Of a stretch of 11,240 bases of DNA, positions 4,549-11,240 are shown piece after piece. A model generated the notes under the pieces. That model was not told the DNA's origin, searched no databases, and saw nothing but the letters and a program-made list of their open reading frames with translations. Where the stretch lies: contig QNBS01000043.1 in assembly GCA_003644175.1 (NCBI GenBank), positions 1 to 11,240 of the forward strand. Direction: 5' to 3'. Within the stretch, counting starts at the first letter, position 1; each line of letters opens with the position of its first letter. Both the position numbers and the translations under genes were made by a program. The DNA comes from Planctomycetota bacterium. Lineage in GTDB: Bacteria; Planctomycetota; Phycisphaerae; Sedimentisphaerales; Anaerohalosphaeraceae.

Positions 4549-5349
4549 TCAGGCGTAGCTGTGCATGCCTTCGAATAATCTTGAGAGGTTTGCCCAGAGC
4601 AGGGTCAGGATTATGGCTACGAGTCCTGAGATGGCCCATGCGGAGTTTATGTATGCGTGCTTCTTTCCGAACATGTGGCGGAAGTGCAGGTAGCCCACGA
4701 AGAACAGCCATGAGGCCAACGACCATAGTTCCTTGGGGTCCCAGCCCCAGTAATCGCCCCACGCGATTTTGCCCCACCAGCTTCCGAGTATCAACCCGAG
4801 TGTGAGCAGGGGAAAGCCGACGCAGACCATTTGATAGGTTGCCATTTCGGCGCCGAGGAGCTGGTCGGTGGAGCGTTTCCTGAGGCCCATGAGCCGGCAG
4901 ACGGCCTGTACGGCGGCTTTGGCCATGAATATGTAGGAGAGCATGTACACGGCGACATGGGGGGCGAACAGCCAGCTTTGCAGCGCCGGCGGCAGGCGCT
5001 GGGGCTCGGCATCGAATTTGAAACCGGTGGGGAACAGGACGATAAACCCGATGAGCATATCGGTCGCAAGCGTCGCCGGGTCGCCTATTTGCAGATAGCG
5101 CTTGCAGAACAGCGATATGGGATAGATCACCAGGCCCAGGGTCAAAAAGACCTCGAAAAGGTTCTGCATGGGGATGTGAGCGACATGATACCAGCGATAC
5201 CCGTAGCAGACTACCGCCGCTACAAAGCCGAAGAAATAAACAACGCCGGCCGTCTTGCGGAGGCGCAGCAGCATCAGCACAAAGGCAACAAGATAATGGG
5301 CCATCGTCAGATAGATCAACAGACCCTGAAGTGTGTATTTAATTTCCAT
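4549..5349 (-). CDS. ccsA: CcsA/ResC-type cytochrome c assembly protein (haem channel, WWD domain)
   Basis: 266 residues with about eight hydrophobic segments, near the usual size of short CcsA proteins. The tryptophan-rich haem-handling WWD motif spans residues 189-209 (GSWWGKIAWGDYWGWDPKELW). H131 (APHVAVYMLSY) and H263 (EGMHSYA, three residues from the end) occupy the places of the two external haem-ligand histidines that flank the WWD region. H222/H225 lie where an intramembrane histidine ligand is expected. In System II, CcsA with ResB/CcsB moves haem to the outer face and attaches it to CXXCH motifs of apocytochromes c. The start is fixed by AGGA 6 bases upstream and overlaps the end of the resB-like gene by 11 bases, so the two are translationally coupled. 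No apocytochrome or thiol-reduction gene (CcdA, ResA) is in view. Confidence 0.93.
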   Translation of the reverse strand: MEIKYTLQGLLIYLTMAHYLVAFVLMLLRLRKTAGVVYFFGFVAAVVCYGYRWYHVAHIPMQNLFEVFLTLGLVIYPISLFCKRYLQIGDPATLATDMLIGFIVLFPTGFKFDAEPQRLPPALQSWLFAPHVAVYMLSYIFMAKAAVQAVCRLMGLRKRSTDQLLGAEMATYQMVCVGFPLLTLGLILGSWWGKIAWGDYWGWDPKELWSLASWLFFVGYLHFRHMFGKKHAYINSAWAISGLVAIILTLLWANLSRLFEGMHSYA

Positions 5350-6460
5350 GTGCAGTCCTTTGTTTTGCGGTTTTGAAATGTGCGATGATCGGACGGAGCC
5401 AGAGGTGATAAACGGCGCCGACGCACATCAGTGCGAAGCCGGCAAACACGAGCATCAGCCCGCTGTCGGAGGTAACGGACAGAACGGTGTATCGTCCGGC
5501 CTTGTCGTCGTATGAACTCTGGTAGAAGTGATAGCCGCCGTAATAGAGCGGATGGTTGACCTCGATAGTCTTTTCGAGCACGACCTTGCCGTCGACGATG
5601 ACCTGCAGATCGCTGAAGAAATCTTTAACCATGCCCTGGGTAACGTAACGCAGTGTGAATTCTTTGCTTTTGCCAAAGTGGCCGGGGTACATCTCAAAAA
5701 CATACTGCTTGTGCTCCGTGCCGTCGGGATACGTGATCGAGATATGGACGGCGGGATTGGACCCGGGATGGGGATCGTCGTAGGCGCCTTTATCCATATC
5801 GATCTTGAAGTTCTTGTAGGTGTTGAGAATCTTGAGGGAGGCGGCGCCGTCGAGCTGGAATGAGGCATCGGTTTCAATGGGTTTCAGCTCCCATGACTTG
5901 CCGTCGGCGGCGCCAACCAGCAGATGGGGCGGATCATAATACTCTATGCGGAAATCCTTGAGGTGGATTTCAAAAGGCAGATGAAAGATGCGGGGGTCTT
6001 CGTCGGTCAAGAGGATGGGATGTCCATGGTCGTCGAATTCGTAGATGGTGACATTATTGTTGGGGTCGATGGCATAGGCCGATCGGATTTTGTCATCGAC
6101 GACGCGGTTTTCGCTCAGGCCTTCGTAGACAGTGATCATGCCGGAGGGCATTTTTTCTCTGCCGAGGAGTTTGTGCCGGAGTTTGTGCCCGTCGCCGGAG
6201 CCCCAGAGGCCTCCGGCGAGAATCGCAATGCAGCCGAGATGAATAAGCAGCAGACCCGGAACACGAATCAGACGCCGGAAGAGGAAAAGGCTCACGATAA
6301 GCAGCAAGGCGAAGAAAATCCAGTAGACGGCCAGAGGAACGGAGTTGAAGAAGGCCTGTGAGCGTTCGGCCCCGATAAAGGCCCCATAGATCGACAATAC
6401 TGTCAGCAGGACGATTACGACCATCGCCATCCACATAACGGCCCTTTTGAGTTCTTTCAT
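5339..6460 (-). CDS. resB: ResB/CcsB-like cytochrome c biogenesis protein
   Basis: 373 residues. There are membrane segments at about 7-30, 43-61 and 69-87, a large soluble domain at about 90-330, and a last membrane segment at about 333-355. H74 in LLIHLG lies in the third segment, where CcsB-type proteins carry an intramembrane haem-ligand histidine. The motif VNHPLYYGGYHFYQSSYD before the last segment is the ResB hallmark. Its partner is the CcsA-type protein encoded immediately downstream with an 11-bp overlap. Together they form the System II cytochrome c synthase. AGGA lies 6 bases upstream of the ATG. The gene is first in its unit and diverges from the TPR/alpha-CTD gene. No strong promoter match was found in the divergent gap on this strand. 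Confidence 0.92.
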   Translation of the reverse strand: MKELKRAVMWMAMVVIVLLTVLSIYGAFIGAERSQAFFNSVPLAVYWIFFALLLIVSLFLFRRLIRVPGLLLIHLGCIAILAGGLWGSGDGHKLRHKLLGREKMPSGMITVYEGLSENRVVDDKIRSAYAIDPNNNVTIYEFDDHGHPILLTDEDPRIFHLPFEIHLKDFRIEYYDPPHLLVGAADGKSWELKPIETDASFQLDGAASLKILNTYKNFKIDMDKGAYDDPHPGSNPAVHISITYPDGTEHKQYVFEMYPGHFGKSKEFTLRYVTQGMVKDFFSDLQVIVDGKVVLEKTIEVNHPLYYGGYHFYQSSYDDKAGRYTVLSVTSDSGLMLVFAGFALMCVGAVYHLWLRPIIAHFKTAKQRTAHGN

Positions 6461-6849
6461 CTCAAATCCTTTATTTAACTGTCAGTGCTGTCCGGCCGAG
6501 TATTTCTGCAGCAATATGCATCAATACAGGGCCCAGATCGCGCCTGTGTTCGAGTCATAAAGCTCGAATCGGCAGAAACGAGGATTATCGTGAAAAAACA
6601 CGGTTTTGCAAGGAAAAAACCGGATTACGCGGTCATACGCTCAGCGGGCGGCGCAGATCGTCGGCAAGCTGCAGCAAGAGGAGATAGCCGAGCGGCCATA
6701 TTGAACTTAAAGCAGGTGTGAAATTTGTATTGCAAATCGCCGGCAAACTTCTATAATGCGCCGCTTGTCGGTGGGCTAATCCGCAGCAGGCGAAACTTCT
6801 AAAAAGAAATACGGTTAAAGAACAGCAGTAGAAAAGGGAGCGATTAACG
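6461..6849. other. Divergent intergenic region between resB-like and TPR genes
   Basis: 389 bases without a recognisable gene. It holds a dyad TTCGAG (6549-6554), 8 bases, CTCGAA (6563-6568), a possible operator. A second inverted repeat is CGGTTTT (6601-6607) and AAAACCG (6616-6622). A 43-codon frame from GTG 6590 to TGA 6721, with GAGGA 5 bases before it and a Lys/Arg-rich product, is possible but unsupported. The promoter of the TPR gene is at 6730-6757. Confidence 0.5.
6730..6757 (+). promoter_or_regulatory. Sigma-70-type promoter of the TPR/alpha-CTD gene
   Basis: TTGCAA (6730-6735), 16 bases, then a perfect TATAAT (6752-6757). The predicted start near 6764 gives an 86-base leader before the ATG at 6850. 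The leader holds no stable hairpin that I could see. Confidence 0.5.
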
Positions 6850-8151
6850 ATGGTGACAATAGAGGACGCACAGGTTGATTTATTCGGGGCCAAACTGCCG
6901 GATATGGCGGCGATTGAGAAGCTGGCCGGGTACGTTAACGGCAGTGAGATCAACCGAATTTCGTTTGAGGAGATGATTGACGGGAATTTGAAAAACAAGC
7001 TCGCCGCCGGGATTGGACTTTATATTCTGGGCAGGTGCGGCGATGCGGCCGAACGTCTCAAAAAGGCGCCCGACTGCAAAGAAAAGTATATGTATCTTGG
7101 CTACGCGCATCGCGGGCTGAAACAGTTCGACAAGGCGATCGAGAGCTTTAGCAAAGCCGGTAAGCATCACGCAGACTCGCTGACGGTTTCTCTTGAGAAG
7201 GCGGCGACATATATCATGGACAATCGCCTTGATGAAGCCGGCAAGGAGTTGAAGAGCTGCTCGAATTTTGAGAAGGTCAGCGCCGACTACCATTACTATC
7301 TCGGTCGGCATGCCGACGCCCGCGGTGAGTACGCCGAGGCGATGGCCAATTACAAGGTGGCCGCCGAGCTTGCGCCCGGACACGCCAAAGCGTTATTTCA
7401 GCTTGCTTATGCATACGATCTCCGGGGCGATGAAGACGCGGCGATCGATTATTACAGACAGGTGATCAGACAAACGCCGGCGCATGTCAACGCTTTGCTC
7501 AACCTGGCGGTGATCTATGAAGACCGGGGTGAATACGAGAAGGCGTCGGCATGCGTGGACGGCGTTTTGAAGGTTCACCCGAACCACGCCAGGGCGCTGC
7601 TTTTTTGGAAGGATATCGAAAGCTGCAAGGTGATGATTTATGACGAGGAAAAAGAACGGCGCAGAGACCGGCGTGCGAAGATACTGGAAATACCGATATC
7701 GGATTTTGAGCTTTCGGTTCGAAGCCGTAACTGTCTGAAGAAGATGGGCATTTTGACGTTGGGCGACCTGTTGCGGATCACGGAGGCGGAGTTGTTGTCG
7801 TACAAGAATTTCGGTGAAACTTCTCTGGTCGAGATCAAGAAGATACTCGATTCCAAAAGTCTGACGCTTGGTATGGCCATAGAGGAGACGGCCGCGGCGG
7901 CGGCCGCCGCCGGTGAAAACGCTGCCGCCGCCGACGCCGACGACGATGTTCTGGAAAAGACGATGGACGACCTGGAGCTTTCGGTTCGGTCGCGGCGTGC
8001 TTTGTCAAGGTTGGGGGTGAATACGCTTGTGGATCTCATTCAGAAGACCGAGGCCGAGTTGTTGGGCTGTAAGAATTTCGGCGTAACCAGCCTCAATGAA
8101 ATCAAGGACCGATTGAGCGCCTTTGGCCTGGGCCTTCGAACGCTGGATTAG
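6850..8151 (+). CDS. TPR protein with two C-terminal RNA polymerase alpha-CTD-like domains
   Basis: 433 residues. Residues about 50-265 form several tetratricopeptide-type helical pairs (for example YMYLGYAHRGLKQFDKAIESF, then ALFQLAYAYDLRGDEDAAIDYY and ALLNLAVIYEDRGEYEKA). A charged linker (about 265-280) leads to a domain at 284-345 close to the C-terminal domain of the RNA polymerase alpha subunit: ELSVRSRNCLKKMGILTLGDLL and KNFGETSLVEIKKIL. An Ala/Asp-rich linker (about 346-372) joins a second copy at 374-433 (ELSVRSRRALSRLG, KNFGVTSLNEIKDRL). Alpha-CTD binds UP-element DNA, sigma and activators; TPRs bind proteins. The protein may therefore link RNA polymerase or promoter DNA to another factor. 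It is not rpoA, because the N-terminal assembly domain is absent. No enzyme motif or signal peptide was seen, so it is probably cytoplasmic. GGGAG lies 9 bases before the ATG. Function is unknown. Confidence 0.9.
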   Translation: MVTIEDAQVDLFGAKLPDMAAIEKLAGYVNGSEINRISFEEMIDGNLKNKLAAGIGLYILGRCGDAAERLKKAPDCKEKYMYLGYAHRGLKQFDKAIESFSKAGKHHADSLTVSLEKAATYIMDNRLDEAGKELKSCSNFEKVSADYHYYLGRHADARGEYAEAMANYKVAAELAPGHAKALFQLAYAYDLRGDEDAAIDYYRQVIRQTPAHVNALLNLAVIYEDRGEYEKASACVDGVLKVHPNHARALLFWKDIESCKVMIYDEEKERRRDRRAKILEIPISDFELSVRSRNCLKKMGILTLGDLLRITEAELLSYKNFGETSLVEIKKILDSKSLTLGMAIEETAAAAAAAGENAAAADADDDVLEKTMDDLELSVRSRRALSRLGVNTLVDLIQKTEAELLGCKNFGVTSLNEIKDRLSAFGLGLRTLD

Positions 8152-8191
8152 GCTTCGGCGTGTCGGCACGAACAACCGATTCGGATGGGAA

Positions 8192-9454
8192 GTGAAGGAT
8201 TTGAGCGTTACAGAAAAGATCTCTTTTAGAACGCTTGGCGTGTTGGCGGTGATAGTTGTTTCCGGTCTTTTGCTTTTTACCATGCGCCACAAGCCCAGGC
8301 CGATAGAGCCGACGCCGGGGATGGAAACATCGCGGCGCCTGTGGGTGAGGGTTTTGCTCTTTGACAACATGAAAGAATTTGCTCTTTCGACACCGTCTGG
8401 TTTCACCGTGCTGGATGGCGACGGGCGGATAGCAGCGCAATTCACCGAGTCGTGCGGAGCGGTTCTTGTCGCGGTTCTGGAAGGTGGAATTGTGATCGGG
8501 GAGCACGTTTTCGGCAATCATGTTCGCATTGAACCGGACGATCCCTTTGTTTTCGGCGTTAATAACGAGGCGTACCGCGGACATGTGCAACTGATCGTCG
8601 CCTCCGACGGCGAGTCGTTTGATGTTGTCAATTCGCTGCCTCTGGAGTCTTATCTTGCCGGCGTTATCGGAGAGGAGATGCCGAGCTACTGGGAAACCGA
8701 GGCTCTGAAAGCCCAGACGATTGCGGCGAGAACTTATTGTCTGTTCATGAAGGCCAGGTTCGGTGCGCGCCGTGAATGGGATGTCACGCGCACGCAGGCC
8801 AACCAGGTTTACGGCGGGATCAAGTCCGAATCACCGATGGTGTGGGATGCGATTCGTCAAACGTCAGGGTGCGTGCTGGTGTGTCGCCGGGGCGACGGCG
8901 AGGAGATTTTTCCGACGTATTACAGTTCGACCTGCGGTGGTCATACCGAAGACAGCAGTCATGTTTTCGGCGATTCTTACGAGCCGCTTCGAGGCGTTCC
9001 TTGTCCGTATTGCGAGGATGTGGCGAGACGGAGTTTCTTTCAGTGGCCGACGGTATCGTTTGCAGCGGCGGATGTGAGTCGTCGGATTATCGAGCGGTAC
9101 CCGAGATTTAAGAGCCTGGAGAGAATCGTCGCCGTCGAACCGGGCCAGGTCAGTGAATACGAAGGCTTCAAGAGGAATGGTTCTCTGCGTCTGGTGGGCG
9201 TAAACGGTCGGAGCAAAACGCTTCGCGCCGAAGATATGCGGCTGACGATCGACCGTACGGGCAAAAAAATAAAGTCCAACAGCTACGAGATATCGCCGCG
9301 GGGCGAACAGTTTGTTTTTTCCGGGGGGCGCGGTTTCGGCCATGCCGTGGGAATGTGCCAGTACGGCGCCGAAGGGATGGCCAGAAGGGGAAAGGACTTC
9401 AAGACGATTTTGAAGCATTATTTTCCCGGTTCGAGTATTCGCCGTGTTCAATAG
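8192..9454 (+). CDS. SpoIID/LytB-type lytic transglycosylase, membrane-anchored
   Basis: 420 residues from GTG 8192. A membrane segment (about 14-29, LGVLAVIVVSGLLLF) is followed by a SpoIID domain: LPLESYLAGVIGEEMPSYW with the likely catalytic Glu at 162 before Met-Pro, then EALKAQTIAARTYCL. STCGGH at 246-251 and GRGFGHAVGMCQYG with H384 near the end are also family hallmarks. SpoIID enzymes cut glycan strands that lack stem peptides. Outside sporulating Firmicutes the family serves general wall remodelling, so the name does not imply sporulation. The start is uncertain: no ATG is available, a TTG at 8123 would overlap the TPR gene, and TTG 8201 is another choice. GTG 8192 lies 40 bases after the TPR stop and keeps the anchor. 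It is probably co-transcribed with the TPR gene. Confidence 0.88.
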   Translation: MKDLSVTEKISFRTLGVLAVIVVSGLLLFTMRHKPRPIEPTPGMETSRRLWVRVLLFDNMKEFALSTPSGFTVLDGDGRIAAQFTESCGAVLVAVLEGGIVIGEHVFGNHVRIEPDDPFVFGVNNEAYRGHVQLIVASDGESFDVVNSLPLESYLAGVIGEEMPSYWETEALKAQTIAARTYCLFMKARFGARREWDVTRTQANQVYGGIKSESPMVWDAIRQTSGCVLVCRRGDGEEIFPTYYSSTCGGHTEDSSHVFGDSYEPLRGVPCPYCEDVARRSFFQWPTVSFAAADVSRRIIERYPRFKSLERIVAVEPGQVSEYEGFKRNGSLRLVGVNGRSKTLRAEDMRLTIDRTGKKIKSNSYEISPRGEQFVFSGGRGFGHAVGMCQYGAEGMARRGKDFKTILKHYFPGSSIRRVQ

Positions 9455-9623: not shown

Positions 9624-10739
9624 ATGTGTGATTGCTACCATTTTGAGCTTACAGCCGAAGACACGAACTCCAGCGCCAGGTGCGGGCGACTGGGCACGGC
9701 GCATGGGGTTGTCGAGACGCCGGTGTTTATGCCGGTCGGAACGCGCGGCTCGGTGAAGGGGCTGACCCCGGCGCAACTCACGGAGGCGGGTTCGACGATT
9801 GTGTTGGCCAACACGTACCATATACTGCTTCGCCCGGGCGTCGATGTGGTGCGATCATTGGGCGGATTGCATAGTCTGATGGGCTGGGACGGGCCGATAC
9901 TGACCGACAGCGGCGGGTATCAGGTCTTCTCGCTTAGTTCGCTGAATCGCATCGGCGACGACGGCGTGGAGTTTGCAAGCCATATCGACGGCGGGCGCGT
10001 CTATCTCGACGCCAGGACGGCAACCGAGGTGCAGAATGCCCTGGGAGCGGACATCATCATGTGCTTCGATGAATGTGCTCCTTATCCATGCGAGCCGAAG
10101 CGTCTGAAAGGCGCCGTCGAGCGGACGATTCGCTGGGCAAAGCAGTGCAAAGAGGCCCACGCAAACGCCGACCAGCTCTTGTTCGGCATTGTCCAGGGCG
10201 GCATCGACGGCGAGCTTCGCCGGTGGTGCTCACGCCAACTGACAGATATGAATTTTGACGGATACGCCATCGGCGGGCTGAGTGTGGGCGAAGGGCACGA
10301 CAATATGGTCCGGACGGTGCGGCGGACGGCGCCGCTTCTGCCGGAGGACAGGCCGCGGTATCTCATGGGCGTGGGGATGCCTGCCGACATTATCGCCGCC
10401 GTGCAGGCGGGTGTGGACATGTTCGATTGTGTGCTGCCGACGCGAAACGGACGCAATGCGTTTGCGTTTGTGCCCGACGGGGCGATTCGTTTGCGAAACA
10501 GCTCTCACACGGACGATCCGGCCCCGGTGCAGGCGGATTGTCCGTGTTACTGCTGTCGGAATTTCAGCCGGGCGGCGCTGAGGCATTTTTTTAATGTCGG
10601 CGAGATGTTAGGGCCGATTTTATTATCTATACATAATATAACATTTTATCAGAGACTGATGAGCACTATTCGCCGGAGGATTGCCCTGGGTGTCTTCGAC
10701 GAATGGGCGACCGAGCGGATTTCAAATATACAGGGATAA
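9624..10739 (+). CDS. tgt: tRNA-guanine transglycosylase (queuine tRNA-ribosyltransferase)
   Basis: 371 residues, the usual bacterial length. It exchanges guanine at position 34 of tRNAs with GUN anticodons (Asp, Asn, His, Tyr) for preQ1, a step in queuosine synthesis in the cytoplasm. The TIM-barrel signatures are complete. D95 in LTDSGGYQVFSL is the general acid/base and D268 in MFDCVLPTRNGRNA the nucleophile. The base pocket has D149/E150 in MCFDEC, VQGG at 190-193 and GGLSVGE at 217-223. The zinc site has C306, C308, C311 and H337. GGAG lies 10 bases before the ATG. The gene is followed by yajC 88 bases downstream, the common tgt-yajC-secD-secF order. No other queuosine gene is in the window. 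An alternative start was not needed, since the first conserved strand begins soon after the Met. Confidence 0.98.
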   Translation: MCDCYHFELTAEDTNSSARCGRLGTAHGVVETPVFMPVGTRGSVKGLTPAQLTEAGSTIVLANTYHILLRPGVDVVRSLGGLHSLMGWDGPILTDSGGYQVFSLSSLNRIGDDGVEFASHIDGGRVYLDARTATEVQNALGADIIMCFDECAPYPCEPKRLKGAVERTIRWAKQCKEAHANADQLLFGIVQGGIDGELRRWCSRQLTDMNFDGYAIGGLSVGEGHDNMVRTVRRTAPLLPEDRPRYLMGVGMPADIIAAVQAGVDMFDCVLPTRNGRNAFAFVPDGAIRLRNSSHTDDPAPVQADCPCYCCRNFSRAALRHFFNVGEMLGPILLSIHNITFYQRLMSTIRRRIALGVFDEWATERISNIQG

Positions 10740-10827: not shown

Positions 10828-11240
10828 ATGAGTGATATTTGGGTACGGGCGGCGTTGGCCCAGGAAGATATCGAGGGCGGGGAAGGTATGGAACTGACCA
10901 GTGATGCGGGCCAGGGCACGCCCGAATCAGTCGTCGGTGTGGACAGCTCGGCAGACCAGAAGGATAAAGGGACCGATAAACAAACGGAAACGCCGAATCC
11001 ATGGATGCAGATGCTGCCGTTCATACTGATCTTTGTCGTGATGTACCTGTTTCTTTTCAGGGGTCCCAGGAAGAAACAAGCCGAGCATAAGAAGATGCTG
11101 GGTTCGCTGCGGAAGAGCGATCGTGTCCGGACGATCGGCGGGATTTTAGGGACGGTGATTGACATCAGGGACGACGAGGTTACGCTGAAGGTGGACGAAT
11201 CGAACAATACGAAGATCAAGGTGACGACCGGCTCGATAGC
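10828..11240 (+). CDS. yajC: YajC, Sec translocon accessory protein (3' end outside window)
   Basis: The frame starts at ATG 10828 and is still open at the right edge (137 full codons). AAGGGA lies 7 bases upstream. After an acidic, Gly/Ser-rich N-terminal stretch of about 57 residues comes one membrane segment (MLPFILIFVVMYLFLFRG). The conserved YajC cytoplasmic part follows: RKKQAEHKKMLGSLRKSDRV, RTIGGILGTVIDI and VTLKVDESNNTKIKV. YajC associates with SecD and SecF in the inner membrane and assists SecYEG-driven protein export. The position right after tgt agrees, and secD is expected beyond the edge. The N-terminal extension is longer than in E. coli YajC, where the membrane helix begins about 20 residues in. 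It has no clear signal peptide. Confidence 0.95.
   Translation, partial: MSDIWVRAALAQEDIEGGEGMELTSDAGQGTPESVVGVDSSADQKDKGTDKQTETPNPWMQMLPFILIFVVMYLFLFRGPRKKQAEHKKMLGSLRKSDRVRTIGGILGTVIDIRDDEVTLKVDESNNTKIKVTTGSI

Follow-up and report, generated by a model that had tools for sequence, protein, structure and literature searches.

The window, an 11,240-nucleotide stretch of planctomycete DNA, encodes a 433-residue protein in which a TPR solenoid is followed by two tandem copies of the C-terminal domain of the RNA polymerase alpha subunit (alpha-CTD), and among the genomes sampled this TPR-double-alpha-CTD protein is a core Planctomycetota innovation. Its CTDs have an RpoA-like fold and stem from the RpoA lineage. 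It occurs as a single copy in nearly every genome examined and its first CTD (CTD1) is more conserved than the source domain, so that it is probably central to promoter reading. These findings suggest a phylum-wide transcription factor candidate that is new to study, and they pose the question of whether an essential alpha-CTD is working in trans.

Architecture of the protein

The gene and its parts, with window positions and the evidence in brackets, are as follows.

6850..8151, plus strand: TPR-double-alpha-CTD protein, 433 aa, ATG start (open reading frame and translation; one relative at E<=1e-20 in 192/195 phylum genomes)
6904..7632, plus strand: TPR helical solenoid, about residues 19-261 (Pfam TPR families, model helices, paired conservation)
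7633..7680, plus strand: conserved connector from the TPRs to CTD1, residues 262-277 (invariant residues; helix 266-279 in the model)
7666..7851, plus strand: alpha-CTD 1, residues 273-334 (Pfam match; R291 is the equivalent of E. coli R265)
7885..7938, plus strand: Ala/Asp-rich linker from CTD1 to CTD2, residues 346-363 (sequence; residues 349-363 with pLDDT <50)
7939..8118, plus strand: alpha-CTD 2 (Pfam match; R380 is the equivalent of E. coli R265, and N268 is replaced by R)

Pfam assigned TPR families to residues ~90-250 and matched RNA_pol_A_CTD (PF03118) to two stretches with E 3e-41 (139.4 bits against a curated cut-off of 23.8), which scored 80.1 and 71.5 bits in a profile search of the genome. 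Two tandem RpoA-type alpha-CTDs after TPRs had been claimed for 6850-8151 in a first-pass annotation, and this match, together with the Foldseek comparison below, bears the claim out; the Ala/Asp-rich linker that it described between the CTDs is present. It had also placed the TPRs where RpoA has its assembly domain, correctly, since none of the 21 Pfam matches belongs to the RpoA N-terminal assembly families (PF01193, PF01000). For the same reason, and because the protein scored under the cut-offs of the RpoA families (NF003513, 142.7 bits against 302; TIGR02027, 134.6 against 227.8), an RpoA paralogue was rejected. The TPR class is indicated by TPR profile matches and the solenoid fold, which are both present, and the connector residues M262, Y264, D265 and E266 are invariant in 68 relatives.

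Identity to the E. coli alpha-CTD was 31 of 59 aligned residues for CTD1 and 29 of 59 for CTD2. A search of PDB sequences with residues 278-433 gave 55 matches; these are alpha subunits of RNA polymerase, with E values down to 2.9e-15, apart from two weak ones to ribosomal protein L12. An AlphaFold model of the full protein, built on an alignment of 68 relatives, had a mean pLDDT of 85.6 and a pTM of 0.60, a value at which the model does not fix the domain packing, and the best 50 of its 1682 Foldseek matches with E<=10 were TPR-type folds. The CTD1 helices of this model (290-298, 304-308, 312-316 and 323-335) are predicted to fall where those of the E. coli alpha-CTD do. For residues 270-433, a single-sequence model (pLDDT 72.5, pTM 0.39) gave 213 Foldseek matches with E<=10, the best 50 of which were all RNA polymerase entries, several of them judged by entry title alone; the matches include 9zum, a Caulobacter alpha-CTD on A+T-rich DNA, and 3n97, in which the E. 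coli alpha-CTD and sigma region 4 are bound to UP-element DNA.

A generic HhH domain was rejected because the best PDB matches are RpoA CTDs and the listed Foldseek matches are RNA polymerase. No HhH family was among the Pfam matches of the protein at E<=0.001, and in three of eight divergent relatives HHH_5 scored below its own cut-off alongside a strong CTD match. The affinity to RpoA over an unrelated HhH family, on which the first-pass annotation depended, therefore holds by the PDB sequence matches, by the Foldseek comparison and by the tree of CTDs described below. By Pfam, the eight divergent relatives (best 25 families for three of them) carry no fused domain besides the TPR-like and CTD parts; an MIT match in L086 (31.9 bits against a cut-off of 30) falls within the TPRs.

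Distribution and descent of the two CTDs

Besides the 192 of 195 Planctomycetota genomes with exactly one relative at E<=1e-20, a 193rd (G083) has one that is cut by a contig end, and two have no strong relative: G149 has a normal RpoA plus only a weak TPR match, and the single CTD of G023 lies in a 73-aa frame. PF03118 is present in 195 of 195. Three matches per genome, the expectation for one RpoA plus the two CTDs studied here, were found in 163 genomes, one match in 2, two in 7 (which include the window's own incomplete genome) and 4 to 6 in 23, where the extras may be further CTD proteins. CTD2 is missing in L086 (G125) and L234 (G061), and the presence of only two CTD matches in G066, G145 and G161 suggests its loss there too. 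The RpoA N-terminal domain was not found in the window's own genome, which is 76.6% complete, and we read this as an assembly gap.

A protein search brought 7996 of the 8000 candidates scored to E<=1e-3, many perhaps matched through their TPRs alone; the best 120 of these were 57-100% identical over 92-100% of the query, and the named organisms among them belong to Planctomycetota groups (Phycisphaerae, Sedimentisphaerales, Planctomycetes and others). JGI names relatives such as P0011, P0014 and P0017 "DNA-directed RNA polymerase subunit alpha", a misnaming, as TPRs replace the assembly domain, and other automatic names of members are "tetratricopeptide repeat protein" and "DNA-directed RNA polymerase subunit alpha C-terminal domain-containing protein". 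A phage gene was rejected, with no relative encoded in the four viral contig stretches that fit a pattern, as was a plasmid gene, with none of 61 matching plasmid records covering 80% of the query. The best 20 of those 61 comprise two TPR proteins and 18 records, annotated as rpoA or not at all, whose match is confined to residues 277-345.

In other phyla, exactly one CTD match was found in 134 of 144 Verrucomicrobiota genomes (2 with none, 8 with more than one), 43 of 48 Hydrogenedentota (2 with none, 3 with two) and 41 of 41 Armatimonadota. Thirty-five genomes were gathered by a 16S pattern; 22 of them are Verrucomicrobiota, 20 of which had one CTD match, one none and one two near contig ends, and the single Brocadiaceae (planctomycete) genome of this set had three. 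The label "specific to Planctomycetota" is meant relative to the phyla in this sample, chiefly Verrucomicrobiota, Hydrogenedentota and Armatimonadota. The four Chloroflexota genomes of the 16S set (G223, G224, G225 and G226) each have, besides a stronger match, a weaker alpha-CTD encoded in a 160-165 aa open frame, and one of the three Hydrogenedentota extras sits in a 142-aa ORF.

Extra CTD proteins were read in six of the eight Verrucomicrobiota genomes with more than one match. Two are sigma-70 proteins (regions 1.2, 2, 3 and 4) with a C-terminal RpoA-type alpha-CTD (L226:534-1757, plus strand; L227:2056-3309, minus strand), three, of ~350-370 aa, have an N-terminal alpha-CTD and then sigma region 4 (L228:1502-2623, plus; L229:987-2057, minus; L231:1711-2757, plus), and the last, a 1055-aa ORF, begins with three alpha-CTD-like repeats (L230:2-3166, minus). 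Pfam found no TPR in the five of these proteins that were scanned. The CTD-sigma fusions indicate that alpha-CTD modules have been put to new use together with parts of the initiation machinery.

A tree of 92 CTDs over 78 columns (27 planctomycete RpoA, 25 of 50 CTD1, 25 of 49 CTD2 and 15 other RpoA) set planctomycete RpoA, CTD1 and CTD2 apart from other RpoA with support 99/89; CTD1 (96/86), CTD2 (92/41) and the two together (100/97) each formed a single group, although the program cautioned that the columns were few and the branches long. The RpoA rows are genuine, as all 30 candidate ORFs align nearly full-length to one of them, and the three planctomycete RpoA scanned have both assembly-domain families. 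At position 298 (E. coli numbering here and below), threonine occupies 27 of 27 distinct planctomycete RpoA CTDs (ORFs in L003-L032), 48 of 50 CTD1 and 43 of 49 CTD2; the 14 outgroup RpoA CTDs read have lysine, a DNA contact in E. coli. The tree derives both CTDs from the planctomycete RpoA lineage by one capture and one tandem duplication, and the shared threonine fits this origin.

Mean pairwise identity was compared in 13 genomes with both genes, an uneven sample of the phylum (14 pairs, one without CTD2 dropped). It was 0.755 for CTD1, 0.645 for the RpoA NTD and 0.597 for the RpoA CTD, followed by the C-terminal TPRs (0.493), the linker (0.487), CTD2 (0.482) and the N-terminal TPRs (0.28). 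The C-terminal TPR part (145-252) is better conserved than the rest of the solenoid. Across 50 sequences the CTD1 stretches P..DFELSVR.RNCL..M and KNFGETSL.EI are nearly fixed, and conservation extends to the last part of the TPR domain and its M.YDE connector.

Contact positions, gene neighbourhood and proposed mechanism

Positions 296-302 and 259/261 are presumably involved in contact with DNA or sigma. In E. coli, both DNA binding and UP-element activation are reported to depend on R265 and N268, and substitutions of N268 to abolish this activation (PMC11434276). CTD1, the window's copy included, keeps R265 in 50/50 sequences, N268 in 48/50, C269 in 46/50, G296 in 50/50, S299 in 49/50 and E302 in 50/50, together with the acidic pair D259 (45/50, E in the other 5) and E261 (47/50). 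From the set R265/N268/C269/G296/K298/S299/E302 it thus lacks K298, lost in planctomycete RpoA too. CTD2 also lacks N268, having K or R there in 45/49 and K or R at 315 in 42/49, and it keeps R265 in 48/49, E302 in 49/49 and G296 and S299 in most members. Position 297 is E in 47 of 50 CTD1 and K in 25 of 27 planctomycete RpoA, and with no lysine at 298 the DNA contact of CTD1 may be weak; nor does its mean charge over 13 chosen positions favour strong DNA binding (+2.1, against +3.1 for the RpoA CTD, +3.0 for CTD2 and +5 for E. coli). Judged by these residues, CTD1 resembles a functional alpha-CTD whose DNA face is less basic than that of RpoA, and CTD2 looks like a diverged helper; the conservation would fit contact with both DNA and sigma for CTD1, and less well for CTD2. 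Binding of A+T-rich promoter DNA, titration and the tethering of a TPR-bound client had been put forward in the first-pass annotation as candidate functions.

We consider it most likely, with middling confidence, that the protein acts as an alpha-CTD in trans and tethers a TPR-bound client to promoter-bound polymerase, and we infer DNA binding, sigma contact, a client and an effect on transcription as its parts. A planctomycete ancestor would have copied the CTD of its own RpoA, doubled the copy and joined it to a TPR scaffold. CTD1 would then sit on A+T-rich DNA upstream of the -35 and/or contact sigma region 4 or an activator, like the CTD of RpoA, and CTD2 would add a second, altered contact with DNA or protein. 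The TPR groove would hold the client, tethering it to the initiating RNA polymerase; alternatively, the presence of the client might help or displace RpoA's own CTD. The RpoA-like fold and sequence, the contacts kept in CTD1 and its conservation, the T298 pattern and the CTD-sigma fusions argue for this mechanism, and E297, the absence of K298, the replacement of N268 in CTD2, ruvA as the commonest neighbour and the pTM of 0.60 count against it.

The mimicry of RpoA contact positions by CTD1, and the lack of an assembly domain, without which the protein cannot enter core polymerase as alpha, would also suit a decoy or competitor. Such a free double CTD would occupy UP elements, activators or sigma and lower or re-rank promoter use, with the TPRs sensing a signal. 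A decoy, however, need not exceed the original in conservation, nor occur in almost all of the planctomycete genomes examined, and we find this role unlikely. A scaffold that binds proteins but no DNA, its CTDs reserved for activators, sigma or a partner outside transcription, would account for E297 and T298 in CTD1, the replaced N268 of CTD2 and the acidic pair kept in CTD1, but the retention of R265 and E302 in both domains makes it rather improbable.

The genes downstream also bear on the choice between a trans-acting alpha-CTD and its alternatives.

8123..9454, plus strand: SpoIID/LytB-domain gene (Pfam, NCBIfam; ORF from the first TTG)
9624..10739, plus strand: tgt, queuine tRNA-ribosyltransferase, a remnant of an ancestral cluster (Pfam, locus comparison)
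10828..11238, plus strand: yajC, a remnant of the same cluster (NCBIfam, locus comparison)

The real start of the SpoIID gene is probably further in, for example at a GTG at 8192, chosen by eye. We compared 41 loci, the window and 40 relatives, hand-picked at about one per family. Among the loci outside the window's class, 22 of 30 have ruvA just downstream on the same strand, against 0 of 11 inside it; the ruvA start lies -67 to 532 bp from the stop of the TPR-double-alpha-CTD gene (with ruvC between them in L094). Over the 41 loci the other downstream genes number spoIID 13, tgt 10, yajC 9, ruvB 6, queH 4 and ruvC 1, where the ruvB count excludes another AAA protein family at two loci and the opposite-strand ruvB of L081; RuvA, RuvB, RuvC, SpoIID and YajC were confirmed in examples by NCBIfam and QueH by Pfam. 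Only 6 of the 22 loci with ruvA downstream have ruvB, so the pair with ruvA is kept more often than ruvA-ruvB itself. Four loci (L085, L086, L094 and L097) show the order ruvA-ruvB-queH-spoIID-tgt-yajC, and the window's spoIID-tgt-yajC is this order minus its first three genes.

The order ruvA-ruvB-tgt-yajC is known from other bacteria, which makes birth of the gene at the head of an old cluster the plainer reading. The downstream gene, described in the first-pass annotation as a wall-remodelling enzyme, is indeed SpoIID/LytB-like, but it looks like a remnant of this old housekeeping cluster, and a specific link to it was rejected since the cluster order accounts for the adjacency. The near-consensus promoter proposed for the TPR-double-alpha-CTD gene did not stand either: TTGCAA-16-TATAAT at 6730-6757 has 10/12 consensus matches, but two such sites were observed in the scanned region against 2.0 expected from shuffles, a chance-level frequency that gives no evidence of a promoter, and the gene's own promoter was rejected. 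Elsewhere in the window, the opposite strand upstream of the gene carries a cytochrome c assembly pair of CcsA/ResB type (4549-6460, minus), whose ResB relative clusters with a single locus (L063) among the 40 others, and a 366-aa ORF (263-1363, plus) has no Pfam match at E<=0.001.

As ruvA adjoins the TPR-double-alpha-CTD gene more often than it adjoins ruvB, a role in recombination stays a real rival. The protein would work with RuvA on branched or stalled-fork DNA, with the CTDs as HhH modules and the TPRs bridging RuvAB/RuvC and perhaps coupling repair to transcription. In the window's class, however, the TPR-CTD gene is kept where ruvA is not there, it may simply have arisen at the head of a housekeeping cluster, and its kept positions are those of the RpoA CTD, sigma-facing ones included, so we hold this role to be as improbable as the scaffold. 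The least probable reading of all is an obligatory trans alpha module, in which CTD1, more than the RpoA CTD with its phylum-wide change at position 298, would be the main upstream promoter and sigma contact and the TPRs would link initiation to another process, perhaps RuvAB fork repair.

Comparison with known systems

The architecture is already catalogued through automatic database names, and a functional study was not found in the PMC literature, where no study of a TPR-alpha-CTD architecture appeared by title or abstract (subscription papers being mostly outside it). According to a transposon paper, Planctopirus limnophila has 108 proteins of unknown function that are both essential and specific to the phylum (PMC10632474); the main text of this paper does not contain "tetratricopeptide", "TPR", "RpoA" or "ruvA". 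Excerpts of PMC8567305 and PMC3906078 contain nothing on the TPR-double-alpha-CTD protein.

The protein is like the RpoA CTD (PF03118; E. coli, B. subtilis) in fold and in most DNA- and sigma-contact positions of CTD1. It differs in having TPRs and not an assembly domain, in the tandem arrangement, in E297 of CTD1 and in K or R at 268 of CTD2, and its T298 is as in planctomycete RpoA. With the Verrucomicrobiota sigma-CTD fusions (L226-L229 and L231) it shares the re-use of an RpoA-type CTD outside RpoA, although those carry sigma regions and not TPRs, have a single CTD and are not core (five of the six extra-CTD genomes read). CarD/CdnL are phylum- or class-specific RNA polymerase accessory factors with an established polymerase contact. 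Like them, the TPR-double-alpha-CTD protein is a small conserved protein that would act on the initiating polymerase and is not a sigma factor, whereas its domains are unrelated and its polymerase contact is a putative one. SicA is a TPR chaperone. In Salmonella, InvF-SicA acts with the RpoA alpha-CTD, according to excerpts of one study (PMC10761746). We draw here a likeness without a claim of homology, in that a TPR protein, an activator and an alpha-CTD come together, in Salmonella as separate proteins and in Planctomycetota within one polypeptide.
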